The position numbers and the translations under genes are program-made. A DNA stretch of 39,809 bases, from the NCBI GenBank assembly GCA_018812525.1, contig JAHJDE010000019.1:1-39809 (forward strand), written 5' to 3'. How positions within the stretch are numbered: the first letter of the stretch is position 1; each line of letters begins with the position of its first letter. Of the stretch, positions 22,835 through 32,611 are shown piece by piece. Source of the stretch: Gammaproteobacteria bacterium (GTDB lineage Bacteria > Pseudomonadota > Gammaproteobacteria > Chromatiales > Chromatiaceae). Below the pieces are notes generated by a model that worked only from the letters and a program-made list of their open reading frames with translations, had not been told where the DNA came from and searched no databases.

Positions 22835-25462
22835 TCAGCCCTCCGCCGCCTCCGGGGTTCTATTTTGAAAGCCCGGCCCGATCAGCCGGGCCGGCAGGCG
22901 GGGCATGCCGCTGACCAGGGAGACCAGGAGGGCTGCGCCGTAGGGGATGGCCTGAATGCCGAGCATCCAGATCCAGGCGAGGCGCTCCCGTTCCTGCTCC
23001 TCCGTCATCCAATGGACGCCGCTTGCGGCAAGCAGGAGGGCGATGAGGAGGAGGGTTTCCTCCCGCGCGGCCATGATGGCCTTCCAGATGGCTGCGGTGT
23101 CGGCCTGCTTCGGGGTGCGGAAGAAGGGGATACTGCGGGTGACCAGGCCGGCCAGCACAGCGCGGGCAATGGTATGGGAGAGGGCAAGCCCTGCCACCGC
23201 TGCTGCCAGGGTCTGGCGTAGGCTGGCCTCGACATTGGTCCGGTAGAGGAAGAAGAGCTTGCTCAGCTTGAACACGAACAGGGAGAGGGGCAAGGCAGAG
23301 TAGATGAGCTGCGGCGCATTGAAATACTGGGGCAGGGCGATGATGGCCAGGGACCAGTAGAGTGCCGCCAGATTGAAGATCAGGTTGATGCCATCGGCAA
23401 TCCAGGGCAGCCAGCCGGCTATGAAGTGGTAGCGCTGGCCGGCGCGCAGTTTGCAGTGGTTGCCGCCGAAGAGCTGGCTGGCGTGGTGCTTGAGGATCTG
23501 GATGGCGCCGTATGCCCAGCGGTAGCGCTGTTTCTTGAAGTCGGTGAAGGTATCGGGCATCAGACCCTGGCCATAGCTGTTGGCGATGTAGGTGGCCTCG
23601 TAGCCCTCCTCGAACACCCGCAGCCCCAGCTCGGCATCTTCCGTGATGGTCCACTCGCCCCACTTGCCCACGTCTTCCAGGACCTTGCGCCGCACCATGG
23701 TCATGGTGCCGTGCTGGATGATGGCGTTGCGCTCGTTGCGTGTGACCATGCCGATGTGGAAGAAGCCCCGGTATTCCGCGTAGCACATGGCCTTGAAGGC
23801 GTTCTCCTTGCTGTCCCGATAGTCCTGGGGGGCCTGGACCACGGCGATCTTCTCGCTGTTGAACTGGGGCACCAGGTCGCGCAGCCAATTGGCTGTGACC
23901 TGATAATCGCTGTCGATGACCGCGATGATCTCTGCCTCGGGGTGGGTTTCGGTCAAAGCGAAGTTGAGGGCACCCGCCTTGTAGCCCGCCAGTGGGGCCT
24001 TGTGGAAGAAGCGGAAGCGTTCACCGAGCTGGGTGCAATGGGCCTCCACCGGCTGCCATACCGCCGGGTCCTTGGTGTTGTTGTCGATGACAATGACTTC
24101 GAAATTGGGGTAGTCCAGCCGCGACAGGGCATCCAGGGTCTCCTTCATCATATCCGGCGGCTCGTTGTAGGCCGGGACGTGGACGGAGACCATCGGCAGG
24201 AGCCTGTCGTCGACCCGCATCAGCTTCAGGGACCGGCGGCGGCTGTGGACCCAGATCGCCTCGGCCCATTCGTGGGCCTCCGCCAGCAGCACCAGGATGA
24301 CCCCGATCATGCCGATCATGAGCAATATGCCCACCACGGCGGTGTCGATGGTCTGGTATTGAATGAGGAAGTCATAGGCCACCCAAACCGCCAGGGTCGA
24401 TGCGGCAAAGGAGATGATGGCGAGGAAGCTGCGGCCGCGCACGTTGAGGGTGCCGCTGTCGATGAAGAGGAAGCCCAGGGTGATGGCGGCAATCAGCACC
24501 GAAATGGCAGCCAGGGCCTTCCATTGGGGCGTCTGGACGATGGGGGCCTGGAGCTCGAACTTGGGCTGGCGCTGCACATCCCAGACCCCCCAGTAGGCGC
24601 CGACGGCCCCCTCCAGCTTGCGTTTCCAGGGTTGGTCGAAGGCCTCCATGATATAGAAGGTGAAGTTTTCCTGAATGGCCCGATCGATGAAACGGCGCAG
24701 GAAGATGGCCTGGTTGGCCAGGGAGGCCTCGGCCTGCTTGCGGCTGCGGCCATAGCTGGGCCAGCCGACTTCGCTGATGACGATGGACTTGCCGGGGAAG
24801 GCCTTTTTCAGTTCATCCATCCTCATCAGGATGTAGTCGATGGAGCGGCCCAGAGAGATCCCTTCCCAGAAGGGCAGCATGTGTACCGCAATGAAGTCCA
24901 CATGCTCGACCAGCTTCGGGTTTTTGAGCCAGACGTGCCAGGGCTCGGCCGTGCTGATGGGGATCTGGAGTTCCTGGCGCGCCCGGTCCAGGTAGGGGAT
25001 CATCTGATCCGCGGTCAGATCTGCCCGCAGGATAGCCTCGTTGCCGACGATGCCGCGCACCACGTTACTGCGGTTGGCCTTGGCCACCTCGATGAAGCGC
25101 TCCAGCTCGATCTTGTTCTTGGCCTCGTTCTTTTCCAGCCAGGCGCCCAGGGTCACGTTGATGTCATGGGCGAGGGCGAGTCTCGGCACCTCGGCAAAGA
25201 CCCCCTCGACCGTATAGGTGCGGATGGCGTGGCTACGACCGGCGAGCAGGGCGAGATCCTGGTCGATCTCTTGCGCCGAGGGATACTTCTTGTACATGGG
25301 ATCGTGCTGCATCCGCATGGGCGAGAAGGAGAAACCCGGAATGATCGTGGGCCAGGCGGGTTCCTGGTCGGGGCGGTTGATGTAGGCCCAGATGCCGACG
25401 GTGACGAGGGCGATGAGGGTGGTGATGAGGGTGGCGACGAAGTGGTGGTGGCCTTTGCTCAT
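22835..25462 (-). CDS. GH17-GT2 fusion, beta-1,3-glucan synthase-like (NdvB type)
   Basis: 875 residues. Membrane segment 8-27, then an extracytoplasmic GH17 domain with the usual two glutamates: Glu142 in GIVGNEAI (acid/base) and Glu231 in VISEVGWPSYG (nucleophile). Membrane segments lie at about 314-335, 345-363 and 373-394, followed by a cytoplasmic family 2 glycosyltransferase: VHVPAYNEPP (429-437), DSD (517-519), TED (607-609), QRYRW (645-649). Several C-terminal membrane helices follow. The architecture matches Pseudomonas NdvB, which makes periplasmic beta-1,3-linked cyclic glucans; all catalytic residues appear present. The product here could be osmoregulatory periplasmic or exported glucan. 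The gene is single, with no OpgGH-like partner visible. Confidence 0.88.
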   Translation of the reverse strand: MSKGHHHFVATLITTLIALVTVGIWAYINRPDQEPAWPTIIPGFSFSPMRMQHDPMYKKYPSAQEIDQDLALLAGRSHAIRTYTVEGVFAEVPRLALAHDINVTLGAWLEKNEAKNKIELERFIEVAKANRSNVVRGIVGNEAILRADLTADQMIPYLDRARQELQIPISTAEPWHVWLKNPKLVEHVDFIAVHMLPFWEGISLGRSIDYILMRMDELKKAFPGKSIVISEVGWPSYGRSRKQAEASLANQAIFLRRFIDRAIQENFTFYIMEAFDQPWKRKLEGAVGAYWGVWDVQRQPKFELQAPIVQTPQWKALAAISVLIAAITLGFLFIDSGTLNVRGRSFLAIISFAASTLAVWVAYDFLIQYQTIDTAVVGILLMIGMIGVILVLLAEAHEWAEAIWVHSRRRSLKLMRVDDRLLPMVSVHVPAYNEPPDMMKETLDALSRLDYPNFEVIVIDNNTKDPAVWQPVEAHCTQLGERFRFFHKAPLAGYKAGALNFALTETHPEAEIIAVIDSDYQVTANWLRDLVPQFNSEKIAVVQAPQDYRDSKENAFKAMCYAEYRGFFHIGMVTRNERNAIIQHGTMTMVRRKVLEDVGKWGEWTITEDAELGLRVFEEGYEATYIANSYGQGLMPDTFTDFKKQRYRWAYGAIQILKHHASQLFGGNHCKLRAGQRYHFIAGWLPWIADGINLIFNLAALYWSLAIIALPQYFNAPQLIYSALPLSLFVFKLSKLFFLYRTNVEASLRQTLAAAVAGLALSHTIARAVLAGLVTRSIPFFRTPKQADTAAIWKAIMAAREETLLLIALLLAASGVHWMTEEQERERLAWIWMLGIQAIPYGAALLVSLVSGMPRLPARLIGPGFQNRTPEAAEG

Positions 25463-25769: not shown

Positions 25770-26108
25770 TCAATAACCGCCCTTGCGATTGACGTAGGGC
25801 AGGCCGGCGATGCGGTTGCCCTGCTTGCTGGGGGCGAGGGGGAAGAGCTTGTAGAGGTCCTTGCTGGCGATCTTCTTGCCCCAGCGGTCGCCCATGGCCT
25901 TGTTGATGGCGCGCTCCATGGGCTGGCTGCCGTTGTTGTCGAAGAACTCCTCGCGCAGGTACTTGATGACATCCCAGTGTTCCTGGGTGAGTTCGATGCT
26001 GTCACTGGCGGCCAGGACCTTGGCGACATCCTCGTTCCAGTCGGCGGTGTTGACCAGATTGTCGTGGCTGTCGGTTTCGATGGTCGTGCCATTCACTTCA
26101 ATGGACAT
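25770..26108 (-). CDS. Cysteine-free DsrC paralogue (RspA-type, DsrC/TusE fold)
   Basis: 112 residues, clearly homologous to the DsrC encoded 6 kb away: MSIEVNGTTIETD, ELTQEHWDVIKYLREEF, and KLFP...SKQGNRIAGLP. DsrC ends in CRYAGLPKPTGCV with two redox cysteines; here the first is Asn98, the tail reads YVNRKGGY, and the whole protein has no cysteine. It therefore cannot carry persulfide or trisulfide. DsrC-fold proteins without these cysteines have been grouped as RspA and suggested to be regulators; DsrC also has a helix-turn-helix-like core. The start has AAGGAGCTAAACA before the ATG. It is last in a group diverging from dsrA, after a 232-base gap that may hold its own promoter. Confidence 0.9.
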   Translation of the reverse strand: MSIEVNGTTIETDSHDNLVNTADWNEDVAKVLAASDSIELTQEHWDVIKYLREEFFDNNGSQPMERAINKAMGDRWGKKIASKDLYKLFPLAPSKQGNRIAGLPYVNRKGGY

Positions 26109-26340: not shown

Positions 26341-27042
26341 TCATTGGAGCGGTTCGGGTCGTTCCTTGATCATTACCGGGTCTATGTCCTTGTGGGGGAT
26401 AAAGATCCCGCAGCCCATCAGCCGGTGCCGGCCGACGCCCTGCTGTTGCAGCCGGATCGACTCCGCGAAGGGGAGATCAGCCAGCATGAGGGAGCGGGTG
26501 AAGAGGGGGCCCTCCGGGGTGTGGAACTCCATGCCCAGGCCGCAGAGGGCCTTGCGGACATGCACACCCAAGACGGCCAGTTCACGCGCCATGTCCTGGA
26601 GAAAGGCCCCCTCGCCCTGCTCGGGTTCGCAGTGGATATGGCGGGCGAAGAGGGTTCCGAGTTTGCTCAAGGATCGGGGTAGCGCCCTGCCCAGGGTCAG
26701 GGGATGGCCGGCGATGTTCAGGGTGGTGCCGGTCAGCCGTTGCGCGTCGGTGATGCGCGTCCGGGGGAGGCGCAGGCACAGCCTGGCCCGGCGCGAGAGG
26801 TGCAGCAGTTCATCGGGGCTGTGCCGGGGCCGCATCCAGCCGTTCTGGGAACCGGCCGCGTAGACGAGGTGGATCGCCGCCAGGGGTTCCTCGTCCAGCC
26901 AGGGCAATGCCTGCCGCAACGCCGTGGATAGGGCATAGGCGTGGTCCACGGGGAGGTGGCGGCAGTTCATCTGGAAGCTCAGGTCCATGACCGCATCGGG
27001 GATGATGCAGCGCTCGTTACGGCCGTCTTCTTGCCAGAACAT
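26341..27042 (-). CDS. Cas6/Cmx6-like protein without a CRISPR array
   Basis: 233 residues from ATG 27042 (MFWQEDGRNE). The frame extends to 27114, but that stretch is translated repeat DNA. The opening DLSFQMNCRHLPVDHAYALS, the middle HPLTLGRALPRSL, LFARHIHC, and above all the glycine-rich end QQQGVGRHRLMGCGIFIP (about 199-216) match the Cas6/Cmx6 (I-MYXAN) family of repeat-RNA endonucleases. His34 is a candidate catalytic residue by analogy. No CRISPR repeats and no other cas genes occur in the window. Its neighbours are a DsrC-like protein and the dsr operon, so a role in RNA processing linked to sulfur oxidation is possible but unproven. Family call fairly confident, function open. Confidence 0.7.
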   Translation of the reverse strand: MFWQEDGRNERCIIPDAVMDLSFQMNCRHLPVDHAYALSTALRQALPWLDEEPLAAIHLVYAAGSQNGWMRPRHSPDELLHLSRRARLCLRLPRTRITDAQRLTGTTLNIAGHPLTLGRALPRSLSKLGTLFARHIHCEPEQGEGAFLQDMARELAVLGVHVRKALCGLGMEFHTPEGPLFTRSLMLADLPFAESIRLQQQGVGRHRLMGCGIFIPHKDIDPVMIKERPEPLQ

Positions 27043-27062
27043 CTCAGGAAATTTCCAGAATA

Positions 27063-27165
27063 AAAAATACCGTTCGGGCTGAGCCTGTCGAAGCCTGTAA
27101 GAACCCTTCGACAAGGCTCTCCTGAGCGAAGCCGAAGGGCTCAGGGCGAACGGCGATGGTATTTT
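27063..27165. repeat. Imperfect inverted repeat of the CGTTCGGGCTGAGCCTGTCG type
   Basis: CCGTTCGGGCTGAGCCTGTCG at 27070 faces GGCTCAGGGCGAACGG ending at 27153. Inside, CTGTCGAAG faces CTTCGACAAGG, and outside AAAATACC faces GGTATTTT. It is a widely seen proteobacterial repeat. It sits inside the minus-strand group, between the 239-aa ORF and the Cas6-like gene, and fills nearly all of their 140-base gap. Confidence 0.75.
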
Positions 27166-27182: not shown

Positions 27183-27902
27183 TCACTCCTCCGGTAATCG
27201 CGATTGAATGAGTGCCCGGTCGAACCACCAGTCGTCCTGAACCAGTACATCGATCACATTGCGCAGGCGGGGCAGGAACCTGTCCGGTTCGTTCAGCTCC
27301 AGGCGTTCCATCCAGAGATCGAACTGCTGCTGATTCTCGACGCCGCTGTGACGGCGGGCTACCTGGCCCAGGATCTGGCTGGTGAAGAAATGGAGCTTCT
27401 CGTGGAGCCCCGGATCGCTCACCCGGTGATCCACCAGGAAGAGGGCTGTGACGGCGGCCACGGCGGCGCCGTCGGCCTTGTCGGGGGTCTCGTCCACCAA
27501 ATGGGTCAGCAGGTGGACGCCCAGCTCGGGGTCCATGGGGAAGGTGACTGCCAGCCAGATCCCCTGGCCCAGGGCGGCAAGGGAGGCCGGCTGATTGCAG
27601 CGGAACAGGACATCGCAGCAGTCGGCGGCCTCTTCCCAGACCTCGCGGTCGAGGAAGGTATCGAGGGCTGCGCGGCCTAGGGGCCAGGCCTCATCGCCGC
27701 GCTCCAGGCCCATCAGAGTCCGCGCCTTCTCCAGCCGGTGGTTGGCGACTTGCGCGGGATCTGTCCTGTCGAGCAGGGCTTCCCCTGCCTTCAACTCGGC
27801 CAGGCGGCCCGCCAGCTCGGCCTGTTCCCGGGCCTTGAGGGCGGCGACGGAACCGGCGGCACTGTCCGGGAGGGGACGAGCGGGATCAAAGATTTCTGTC
27901 AT
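27183..27902 (-). CDS. Hypothetical helical protein (239 aa) in the DsrC-like/Cas6-like group
   Basis: 239 residues, MTEIFDPARPLPDSAAG to ALIQSRLPEE, family not recognised. Helix-forming segments with repeat-like spacing (ARTLMGLERGDEAWPLGRAA, VWEEAADCCDVLFRCNQPAS, ALGQGIWLAVTFPMDPELGV) suggest a TPR-like alpha-solenoid. The N-terminal part is charged and coiled, and a conserved-looking tail follows (DRFLPRLRNVIDVLVQDDWW). No signal peptide or membrane segment. The 62-aa ORF is six bases upstream, so they are probably coupled; the Cas6-like gene lies 140 bases downstream across a repeat. It may be a scaffold for partners encoded nearby (inference). Confidence 0.75.
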   Translation of the reverse strand: MTEIFDPARPLPDSAAGSVAALKAREQAELAGRLAELKAGEALLDRTDPAQVANHRLEKARTLMGLERGDEAWPLGRAALDTFLDREVWEEAADCCDVLFRCNQPASLAALGQGIWLAVTFPMDPELGVHLLTHLVDETPDKADGAAVAAVTALFLVDHRVSDPGLHEKLHFFTSQILGQVARRHSGVENQQQFDLWMERLELNEPDRFLPRLRNVIDVLVQDDWWFDRALIQSRLPEE

Positions 27903-27908
27903 GGCCTG

Positions 27909-28097
27909 CTAGACCCGGCCGCTGAAGGCGGCCTCGACCCGGTCCTCCCAGTCGTTGGGCGTGTCGGGGTACTGCGGTTTCACGTCGATCTGGAAGAATC
28001 GCTCCCCCCGGCGGGCGTGCTCCTGGATGAGCGGCAGCAGCTCCTCGAAGGACTGGATCTCTTGGTGGGCGATCAGTATGTGGCTCAGATAAAGCAT
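27909..28097 (-). CDS. Small hypothetical protein (62 aa) heading the group divergent from dsrA
   Basis: 62 residues, MLYLSHILIAHQEIQSFEEL to EDRVEAAFSGRV. It is soluble, and the pattern of the first half (SHILIAHQE...FEELLPLI) faintly recalls a parvulin start, though the rest does not fit and it is too short for that enzyme. It ends six bases before the 239-aa ORF. No ribosome site precedes the ATG; instead a TTTAGG/GGGTTTAG repeat comes to within about ten bases, so the original leader may have been displaced or the start may be wrong. Confidence 0.6.
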   Translation of the reverse strand: MLYLSHILIAHQEIQSFEELLPLIQEHARRGERFFQIDVKPQYPDTPNDWEDRVEAAFSGRV

Positions 28098-28514
28098 GTC
28101 TTGATTTAGGCTTGAGGGTTTAGGGTTTAGGCTTGAGGTATTGTGGGAGGTAAGGGCGTTGGCCTACATATTCAAACACGTAGCAGGCCGGGGTTTAGGC
28201 CGACCTACAACCCTTGTGATTTTTCGTGTGCGAAGACCCAACGGACAATTCGGGTTAACAGCCTAAACTCTCAAGCCTAAACCCTCAAGCCTCCACCATC
28301 CGGATCTATCCCGAATGGGATAGGCGTAGCGGGGGCTATCCCCCTTTGGTGGAATAGGATGCGGCTGGTTCCTTGACTATATTTCCGCCCCTACGGAGGA
28401 GGCGTTCTTGGCTAGCGAACGCAACACGCGATGGTGATCCTCCGATCAGTTATGTGAGGCAGGCCGGCCAAGCCGGCAATCACGGCAGTCAATTTAAGTC
28501 AGGAGAAAAGCGAG
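28098..28514. promoter_or_regulatory. 417-base divergent control region between the minus-strand group and dsrA, with repeats
   Basis: The left part holds an imperfect inverted repeat: TTAGGCTTGAGGGTTTAGGG (from 28106, with a 7-base GGGTTTA duplication) against GCCTAAACTC...CCTCAAGCCT (28261-28292). Between them is GTAGGTCGGCC-type repeat DNA. The right part (28300-28514) should hold the dsr promoter. TATATT at 28378-28383 is a fair -10, but no -35 is at the right distance, which would fit an activator-dependent promoter. GCCGG-CCAAG-CCGGC near 28459 is a small hairpin. AGGAGA at 28501 is the dsrA ribosome site. Confidence 0.45.
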
Positions 28515-29762
28515 ATGGCTTTTGAGAAGCACAATACTCCGATGCTTGATCAGCTCGAAACCGGCCCCTGGCCGAGTTTCATCAGCGGCATCAAGCGCAT
28601 GCGTGACGAGCACCCCAGCGAAACCATCAACAAAACAATCAACGACCTGCTGGGCCAGCTCGAACACTCCTACGAAACCCGCAAGGGCTACTGGAAGGGC
28701 GGCACCGTATCCGTCTACGGTTACGGCGGCGGCATCATTCCCCGCTTCTCCGAGGTGGGCAAGGCCTTTCCTGAATCCAAGGAATTCCATACCGTCCGTG
28801 TTCAGCCGCCGGCGGGCAACCACTACACCACCGCCATGTTGCGCCAGTTGGGTGATAGCTGGGAAAAGTTCGGCTCAGGCCTGGTGACCTTCCACGGTCA
28901 GACCGGCAACATCATGTTCATCGGTACCGACACCGTTCGTACCCAGGACTTCTTCGACGAAATCAACGATTACGGCTGGGACCTCGGCGGCGCCGGCCCC
29001 TGTGTGCGTACCGCCATGTCCTGCATCGGCGCCGCCCGTTGCGAGATGTCCTGCTTCAACGAGCAGAAGGCGCATCGCCTGCTGGTGAACAACTTCACCG
29101 ACGACGTGCATCGCCCGGCCCTGCCCTACAAGTTCAAGTTCAAGGTCTCCGGCTGCGGCAATGACTGTCAGAACGCCATCGAGCGCGCCGACTTCGCCAT
29201 GCTCGGCACCTGGCGCGACGACATGAAGGTCGATCAGGCAGAGGTCAAGGCCTATGTCGCCAAGAAGGGCCGCCAGCACGTCATCGACAACATCATCAGC
29301 CGCTGCCCAACCCAGGCACTGTCGCTGAACGACGACGATAGCCTGAAGGTCAACAACCGCGATTGCGTCCGCTGCATGCACTGCCTGAACGTCATGCCCA
29401 AGGCACTGCACCCCGGCGACGACAAGGGCGTCACCATCTGCATCGGCGGCAAGCGCACCCTCAAGATCGGCGATCTGATGGGCACCGTGCTCATCCCCTT
29501 CAAGAAGCTGGATACGGACGAGGATTGGGAATCCCTGGTCGAGCTGGCCGAAACCATCATCGACTTCTGGGCCGAAAACGCCCTGGAGCACGAGCGTTGC
29601 GGCGAGATGATCGAGCGCATCGGCCTGGTCAACTTCCTGGAAGGCATCGACATCGACCCCGATCCGAACATGATCAGCGAGCCGCGCCAAAGCTCCTACG
29701 TCCGCATGGACGAATGGGACGAGGCGGCAGAGGCCTACTTCGCCCGCAAGGCCGAGGCCTGA
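28515..29762 (+). CDS. dsrA: Reverse dissimilatory sulfite reductase, alpha subunit
   Basis: 415 residues. With DsrB it forms the cytoplasmic siroheme enzyme that oxidises DsrC-bound persulfide sulfur to sulfite. Siroheme-[4Fe-4S] ligands are intact: Cys170-x5-Cys176 in MSCIGAARCEMSC and Cys214-x3-Cys218 in VSGCGNDCQNA. The ferredoxin insertion lies later (CPTQALSL, then DCVRCMHCLNVMPKAL). AGGAGA lies eight bases before the ATG. First gene of the operon. The oxidative type is inferred from the linked dsrEFH and dsrL. Confidence 0.98.
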   Translation: MAFEKHNTPMLDQLETGPWPSFISGIKRMRDEHPSETINKTINDLLGQLEHSYETRKGYWKGGTVSVYGYGGGIIPRFSEVGKAFPESKEFHTVRVQPPAGNHYTTAMLRQLGDSWEKFGSGLVTFHGQTGNIMFIGTDTVRTQDFFDEINDYGWDLGGAGPCVRTAMSCIGAARCEMSCFNEQKAHRLLVNNFTDDVHRPALPYKFKFKVSGCGNDCQNAIERADFAMLGTWRDDMKVDQAEVKAYVAKKGRQHVIDNIISRCPTQALSLNDDDSLKVNNRDCVRCMHCLNVMPKALHPGDDKGVTICIGGKRTLKIGDLMGTVLIPFKKLDTDEDWESLVELAETIIDFWAENALEHERCGEMIERIGLVNFLEGIDIDPDPNMISEPRQSSYVRMDEWDEAAEAYFARKAEA

Positions 29763-32461: not shown

Positions 32462-32485
32462 ATCCAAAGGCGCTGTGTTCGGACT

Positions 32486-32580
32486 TCTGATAATTCCTTC
32501 CCTGGAATTATCAGAGGCGGAAATCAAAAAGAGTGTTTTTTGATTTCCTTCTACAGGTCCGGGGCGTTTGCGCGCCCCGG
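32486..32580. promoter_or_regulatory. Three tandem hairpins between dsrC and dsrM
   Basis: Hairpin 1: TCTGATAATTCC with a perfect complement (32486-32497/32504-32515). Hairpin 2: GGAAATCAAAAA with a perfect complement (32519-32530/32536-32547), loop GAGTG. Hairpin 3: CCGGGGCG with CGCCCCGG (32559-32566/32573-32580). They fill most of the 150-base spacer, the longest inside the operon. They could stabilise the abundant dsrC message, attenuate transcription into dsrM, or be inserted repeats like those elsewhere in the window. The dsrM ribosome site is weak. Confidence 0.7.
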
Positions 32581-32611
32581 GCATGTCACAAGAGACTGAG
32601 GGTACGGAAAC

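Follow-up and report, generated by a model that had tools for sequence, protein, structure and literature searches.

A Cas6-family protein outside CRISPR loci, encoded in a gene module that accompanies the dsr operon of gammaproteobacterial sulfur oxidizers

The window, i.e., the whole stretch of 39,809 nucleotides that was analysed (contig JAHJDE010000019.1, a gammaproteobacterium of the Chromatiaceae), carries a gene for a Cas6-like protein beside the dsr operon. This raises the question whether a member of a CRISPR RNA endonuclease family is here a displaced CRISPR gene, or whether it belongs to the sulfur oxidation locus and, if so, what it might do there.

Family, fold and conserved residues

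The initial annotation had assigned the product of 26341-27042 to Cas6/Cmx6, proposed a profile search and a structure prediction as checks, and named the lack of a significant Cas6 profile match as an outcome that would speak against the assignment. Both the coordinates and the family turned out to be right. The open reading frame at 26341-27114 (minus strand) includes the start methionine of MFWQEDG at 27042, and homologues have a similar N-terminus. All profiles match: the scores for PF09559 (E 1.6e-59, 201.6 bits, cut-off 26.7) and TIGR02807 (cas6_cmx6, 121.1 bits, cut-off 98.85) exceed the curated thresholds, and the Cas6 profile of PADLOC agrees with them (E 4.1e-58). The sole match in the PDB is 8fcj_B, a type I-B Cas6 (E 3.6e-6). 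A structure model built on 35 aligned sequences (pLDDT 89.5) has the predicted fold of Cas6 and superimposes on 8fcj_B with Z 24.1 and rmsd 2.2 over 198 residues; in Foldseek it gave 42 matches with E ≤ 0.001, the titles of which are all Cas6, Cse3 or Cascade. The C-terminal glycine-rich loop of the family is present as GVGRHRLMGCGIF. Between the window and a congener dN/dS is 0.27 for cas6 and 0.08 for dsrA, i.e., cas6 is under purifying selection in this comparison. The source genome, a draft of 215 contigs, contains a single match to PF09559.

In the homologues linked to dsr (the dsr group), His34 of a DH motif is conserved in 35/35 rows that reach the position, and also in all six relatives encoded on plasmids. 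The predicted structure places it where helix 1 begins, following the first strands; 8fcj_B has an asparagine at this position. A second histidine at the end of helix 1 (hydrophobic-H-[D/E/N]) is found in five of the six plasmid relatives, in 8fcj_B and in one dsr-group row; as it is missing in the other 35 of 36 rows, RNA cutting may be lost in this group. His58, in turn, is present in 36/36 dsr-group rows reaching the position and in 8fcj_B, and is found neither in the six plasmid relatives nor in the remote members G142 and G511. This pattern makes it possible that the active site has moved in the dsr group. For several Cas6 proteins the catalytic histidine is described as lying either behind the first strand or within helix 1 (PMC3150331, PMC3652601), and its position is reported to vary among Cas6 proteins, with an active Sulfolobus Cas6 missing it altogether (PMC3652601). 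Invariant in the 35 rows are H34, R85, R91, R134, K164 and, in the glycine-rich loop, G204, G210 and G212, and several of these residues have invariant counterparts in the plasmid relatives.

The gene module and its neighbours

The features to which the following sections refer are, in window coordinates:

25770-26108, minus strand: cysteine-free DsrC paralogue ending in KGGY (PF04358, E 4.6e-32; TIGR03342, 97.5 bits)
26341-27042, minus strand: Cas6-family protein of 233 aa (PF09559, TIGR02807, PADLOC; predicted fold)
27183-27902, minus strand: u239, all-helical protein of 239 aa (structure model; no Pfam match)
27909-28097, minus strand: conserved small ORF of about 61 aa (found at 73 of the best 80 named loci)
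28306-28323, no strand assigned: 18-bp palindrome CTATCCC-N4-GGGATAG, candidate operator (conserved between dsrA and the small ORF)
28515-29762, plus strand: dsrA, first gene of the dsr operon (TIGR02064, 637.9 bits)
32462-32611, plus strand: three hairpin-like palindromes in the gap between dsrC and dsrM, probably without a tie to Cas6 (by eye, shuffles, comparison of loci)

As the initial annotation had noted, cas6 shares its strand with a DsrC paralogue that contains no cysteine, and the group on the minus strand diverges from dsrA, which starts on the plus strand at 28515. The module is composed of the 61-aa ORF, an optional u239, Cas6 and the KGGY-tailed DsrC paralogue. Of at least 571 named loci the best 80 were compared; among these the small ORF occurs at 73, at each of them on the cas6 strand, a DsrC-like ORF at 64 and u239 at 42; dsrA is present at 60 of these 80. 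These loci include Allochromatium (A. palmeri and A. humboldtianum), Thiocapsa, Chromatium, Lamprocystis, Sedimenticola, Thiogranum, Thioploca, Marithrix and Thiomargarita. The proposed check, whether cas6 stays next to dsrC-like genes in other sulfur oxidizers, hence came out positive, and homologues are not confined to ordinary CRISPR loci, a result which had been named as contrary evidence.

The genes of the module are closely spaced. The median gap is 45 nt between the small ORF and u239 (71 loci), 20 nt between u239 and cas6 (75 loci) and 15.5 nt between the small ORF and cas6 (34 loci with both close together). In the window the gap between u239 and cas6 measures 140 bp and that between cas6 and the DsrC paralogue about 230 bp; co-transcription of the latter two is plausible, as predicted from their common strand. 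By eye, a REP-like inverted repeat is seen at 27070-27165, between u239 and cas6. On the far side of the module, 22835-25462 encodes a fusion of a GH17-like domain with a GT2 cellulose-synthase-like domain.

Neither of the two additional proteins has a Pfam match, u239 at E values up to 1. The model of u239 (pLDDT 93.3) consists of 11 helices, for which Foldseek found weak TPR-like matches to the predicted structure, the best with E 0.044. A relationship to Cse2/Cas11 was considered and rejected, as a single homologue matched PF09485 with E 0.034, below the cut-off, which was judged to be chance.

The DsrC paralogue is set apart by its C-terminus. KGGY ends 95/95 complete DsrC-like copies downstream of cas6, counts of loci being non-independent here as for the hairpins and the palindrome below, since L036/L132 and L043/L113 share DNA and many species are related. 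The penultimate cysteine is found in 0/95 of these copies, and 87/95 have no cysteine at all; the DsrC encoded before dsrM has it in 76/76. By this test of the penultimate cysteine the product of 25770-26108 is not a sulfur-carrying DsrC.

At 44 of the best 80 named loci a TauD-family dioxygenase gene lies between dsrA and the module (e.g., L133:8849-9784), the label (PF02668) coming from the scan of a single cluster member; none was seen in the window. The same genome contains a further dsrA/dsrB pair (49-53% identity) together with a DsrC-like gene at L183 (G000, contig C201), where no Cas6 was seen.

Co-occurrence with dsrA and CRISPR context

Among 55 relatives of the source genome, 37 have a PF09559 match, and the identical 37 have dsrA, either as a full gene or as a fragment at a contig edge; weaker dsrA matches in five further relatives were read as ordinary sulfite reductases. 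The same was seen in a sample of 274 gammaproteobacterial genomes spread over many family codes. With dsrA counted at E < 1e-30, Cas6 was present in 91 genomes and dsrA in 94, both together in 87, Cas6 only in 4, dsrA only in 7 and neither in 176 (Fisher p 2e-57, a statistic that ignores ancestry and is inflated by kinship). Cas1 was detected in 44/91 genomes with Cas6 and in 64/183 without it, a weak association (p 0.036), and it went undetected in 47/91 of the Cas6-positive genomes of the class and in 9 of the 37 Cas6-positive relatives. Cas6 tracks dsrA, and Cas1 only weakly. In all but one of the 91 genomes Cas6 is single-copy (90/91), the exception being G296 with two adjacent pieces. The gene is kept in three genomes of 1.0-1.1 Mb (G072, G174 and G287), which we presume to be symbionts and none of which is among the Cas1-positive genomes. 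A further draw of 299 genomes, in effect of single-class scope as the 24 listed genomes are all gammaproteobacterial, yielded Cas6 in four, each time adjoining dsrA and a DsrC-like gene.

Gene order is also retained. In 65/87 genomes no more than 6 kb separate Cas6 from dsrA (median gap 1.7 kb), and all 65 of these pairs are divergent. In G142 they are 40.8 kb apart, and in 21/87 genomes they are on different contigs. Some of the latter are truly apart, as in L046 (genome G042), where about 10 kb around cas6 contain no dsr genes. Likewise, in L078, L081, L084, L112 and L122 (Marithrix, Parabeggiatoa, Thiomargarita and one Thiotrichaceae record) the small ORF and cas6 are kept while dsr is absent within about 10 kb on each side. 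Because small ORF and cas6 stay together away from dsr in Marithrix, Parabeggiatoa, Thioploca and Thiomargarita, they may be the tightest pair of the module.

Most genomes with only one of the two genes coincide with assembly breaks. In the four Cas6-only genomes the side facing dsrA is cut short by a contig end about 1.5 kb or less from cas6 or from the small ORF, and in 6/7 dsrA-only genomes a contig end cuts the upstream side of dsrA within 1.9 kb. In the dsrA-only genome G243, one of two dsrA pieces has a complete upstream flank, yet Cas6 is absent; in its sister G120, cas6 stands at the edge of one contig and dsrA on another. The many family codes together with the constant gene order make the tie to dsr unlike chance, despite the relatedness of the genomes.

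The neighbourhood of the window gene is not that of a CRISPR system. A repeat scan found no CRISPR array in the window, as had been claimed from the letters, and no Rfam family reached its gathering score there. Type I-MYXAN neighbours (cas3, cas8/cmx8, cas7, cas5) are lacking beside cas6, which is instead surrounded by dsr genes, the small ORF, u239, the DsrC paralogue and the GH17/GT2 gene. Likewise, the repeat scan gave no array at the fetched cas6 loci L031-L201, the non-array signals being simple repeats in L082 and L085 and masked N in L176. Arrays in the scan of L031-L204 were confined to the genome's own CRISPR loci L202-L204, with 17, 27 and 17 repeat copies. One of these three loci looks like type III-B with its own, different Cas6, the second has I-C-type Cas1 and Cas4, and the third resembles type III with an RT-Cas1; this typing comes from 10 ORFs scanned across the loci of a draft assembly. 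Two reverse-transcriptase-Cas1 fusions were seen, in the type III loci L202 and L204. A complete I-MYXAN system elsewhere in the genome, which the gene might have served and which would have spoken against an orphan, was not seen in the searched part of the draft (three CRISPR loci, 10 ORFs). Cas6 genes are reported to be sometimes detached from other cas genes (PMC3575380). On viral contigs, 42 pattern matches included no Cas6 relative.

Judged by this comparison, the window protein is a Cas6-family member outside any CRISPR locus, in a dsr-accompanying module that is usually divergent from dsrA, and the sequences argue that the dsr-linked Cas6 proteins are a genuine, conserved subfamily outside CRISPR with a tie to sulfur oxidation. 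In a quick tree, 47 dsr-group Cas6 and six plasmid Cas6 proteins are split by one branch (SH-aLRT 99), the root not being fixed and the CRISPR side being a small sample (n = 6); the split is consistent with one exaptation.

In the open-access literature no description of an association of cas6 with dsr, or of its function, was found. A map of dissimilatory sulfur gene clusters in MAGs from mangrove names cas6 in the legend of Figure 3 (mLife 2023, PMC10989796); in the accessible main text of that paper this is the single occurrence of cas6, CRISPR does not occur and the gene is not discussed. In the accessible text of other open-access papers that name both, cas6 appears only as an ordinary CRISPR gene or in a gene list.

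Possible functions and comparison with known systems

From the comparisons above, the Cas6 fold has very probably been exapted from CRISPR. That the dsr-group protein acts on RNA is favoured by us with some reserve, and that this RNA derives from dsr is a tentative and rather doubtful further step. Taken as a whole, the reading we prefer is that Cas6 was exapted for the dsr pathway and would serve it as an RNA-binding or RNA-cutting regulator alongside the KGGY-DsrC, which we consider somewhat better than an even guess. A fuller version falls a little short of even odds: Cas6 would have left CRISPR once, been passed on mainly vertically in gammaproteobacterial sulfur oxidation, and now form an RNA-level regulator or processing complex with the KGGY-DsrC. 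The two proteins would act jointly on a dsr-linked transcript, for which the dsrA leader, the operon mRNA of the module itself and an as yet undescribed small RNA encoded in the divergent region are candidates. Without the sulfur-carrying cysteine, the KGGY-DsrC may be a sensor or a DNA-binding partner at the palindrome; according to one report, DsrC of A. vinosum binds DNA upstream of dsr (PMC5944118).

The main rival dispenses with RNA. The Cas6 fold could be a protein scaffold or assembly factor for the Dsr machinery (DsrAB, DsrC, DsrEFH), and the loss of the second histidine from 35/36 dsr-group rows fits this, as do the partners, since u239 with its weak TPR-like matches and the DsrC with its invariant KGGY end resemble parts for protein-protein contacts. 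However, H34, the arginines, the lysine and the loop glycines listed above are invariant and several of them are matched in the plasmid relatives, and we regard the scaffold as unlikely, although it is the best of the alternatives.

A second rival concerns the hairpins of the dsr operon: Cas6 might cut those at the dsrC-dsrM (or dsrA-dsrB) junction, for example to leave the dsrC mRNA with a protective 3' hairpin. The initial annotation had pointed to three hairpins between dsrC and dsrM, and by eye three hairpin-like palindromes are indeed there. A hairpin of at least -12 kcal/mol stability was found at the dsrC-dsrM junction in 74/74 loci and at the dsrA-dsrB junction in 63/83. Both junctions stand out against shuffled sequences (12 shuffles each), with z below -2 in 53% of the 74 and 60% of the 83 loci, as against 0-22% for the other ten junctions; hairpins of this energy between cas6 and the DsrC paralogue gene (50/88) or dsrK and dsrL (35/66) are not above shuffles. 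By eye, the hairpin after dsrC is often without a T run, and a similar hairpin lies between dsrA and dsrB. The dsrC-dsrM hairpin nevertheless does not follow Cas6: it is missing from L193 and L194, whose genomes measure about 1.1 Mb and encode Cas6, and is present in 6/6 operons without detected Cas6, the latter being a weak control because a contig end cuts off the expected cas6 site and may hide the gene. In addition, the stem sequences vary freely between species. Cutting of the dsr hairpins by Cas6 is thus unsupported and seems to us quite improbable. The earlier proposal of a host-adapted Cas6 that processes sulfur-pathway mRNA holds in its first part, a non-CRISPR Cas6 tied to dsr, and not in the processing of the dsr hairpins.

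The region between dsrA and the module contains the 18-bp palindrome, which is unique in the source genome (at most one mismatch). At least 11 of its 14 half-site bases are matched in 76/89 intergenic regions between dsrA and the small ORF, against a mean of 2.8 for mononucleotide-shuffled regions, the best site per region being scored with a consensus derived from those same regions (L031-L146). In 72 of these 76 regions it lies 119-314 bp before the dsrA start. In the window alone the palindrome is not significant (15/100 shuffles matched at up to two mismatches). The match is poor in the remote loci L196-L198 and in L194 (9-10/14), and 13 other regions upstream of dsrA have best scores of 8-12/14. 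An RNA hairpin recognized by Cas6 was considered and rejected for this site: of 532 pairs between the arms 454 are Watson-Crick, 16 G-U and 62 mismatched, with five compensatory changes, which fits DNA better. As the changes are mostly not compensatory, we read the palindrome as a DNA site, and it is a candidate dsr operator.

The DsrEFH-DsrC proteins are related to TusBCD-TusE, which relays sulfur for tRNA thiolation. The module might therefore act on tRNA, with the Cas6 fold as RNA binder and the TusE/DsrC-like protein coupling tRNA thiolation to sulfur oxidation. TIGR03342 does cover both TusE and DsrC and scores 97.5 bits with the KGGY paralogue, but the complete lack of the penultimate cysteine (0/95) speaks against such a role, as does the lack of a tRNA gene in the window, and we give it very little credence.

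Least probable of all, close to negligible, is crRNA processing in trans for arrays elsewhere in the genome: although the protein is a true Cas6, the genome has arrays, one with genes of the I-C type, which is without Cas6, and Cas1 is weakly associated (p 0.036), the association proper is with dsrA, Cas1 is undetected in 47/91 genomes of the class and 9/37 relatives, including those of 1.0-1.1 Mb, the III-B locus has its own Cas6, and in type I-C it is Cas5d that is reported to cut (PMC3652601).

If the preferred reading as a regulator of the dsr pathway is true, Cas6 would have been recruited into core energy metabolism, with a fixed metabolic and not an immune role, and RNA-level control by Cas6 would, to our knowledge, add a new layer to the regulation of the dsr operon. 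Since TIGR02807 labels the protein as CRISPR, a part of the sulfur oxidation locus that is widespread may be hidden under a CRISPR name, pass as an orphan CRISPR gene and mislead CRISPR surveys. The KGGY-DsrC offers a second clean entry point to the module.

Three known systems come closest to the module. Cys-free DsrC-like proteins are called RspA and have been proposed as regulators. The window paralogue likewise belongs to the DsrC family without the active cysteine; in difference to RspA-type proteins, it adjoins a Cas6 gene and ends invariantly in KGGY (95/95). With type I-MYXAN Cas6/Cmx6 the dsr group has in common the family by curated cut-offs, the predicted fold, the DH motif and the glycine-rich loop. 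Its identity to the six plasmid Cas6/Cmx6 proteins is 24-27%, and whereas five of these six are encoded beside cas3 and cas8/cmx8 and five keep the second histidine, the dsr group lacks both the CRISPR neighbours and this histidine. Many dsr-group proteins carry an NGW insert, which is absent from the plasmid and remote members. The sixth plasmid member, from Gloeobacter morelensis (L207), has no cas gene annotated nearby; its neighbours are a cupin gene, a gene of the PAPS-reductase family and hypothetical genes, and it may represent another unusual setting for Cas6. Finally, the closest solved structure is 8fcj_B, the Cas6 of a type I-B CRISPR-associated transposon, which shares with the dsr group the histidine at the position of H58; unlike the dsr group, it is a Cascade subunit, has an asparagine at the position of H34 and retains the second histidine.
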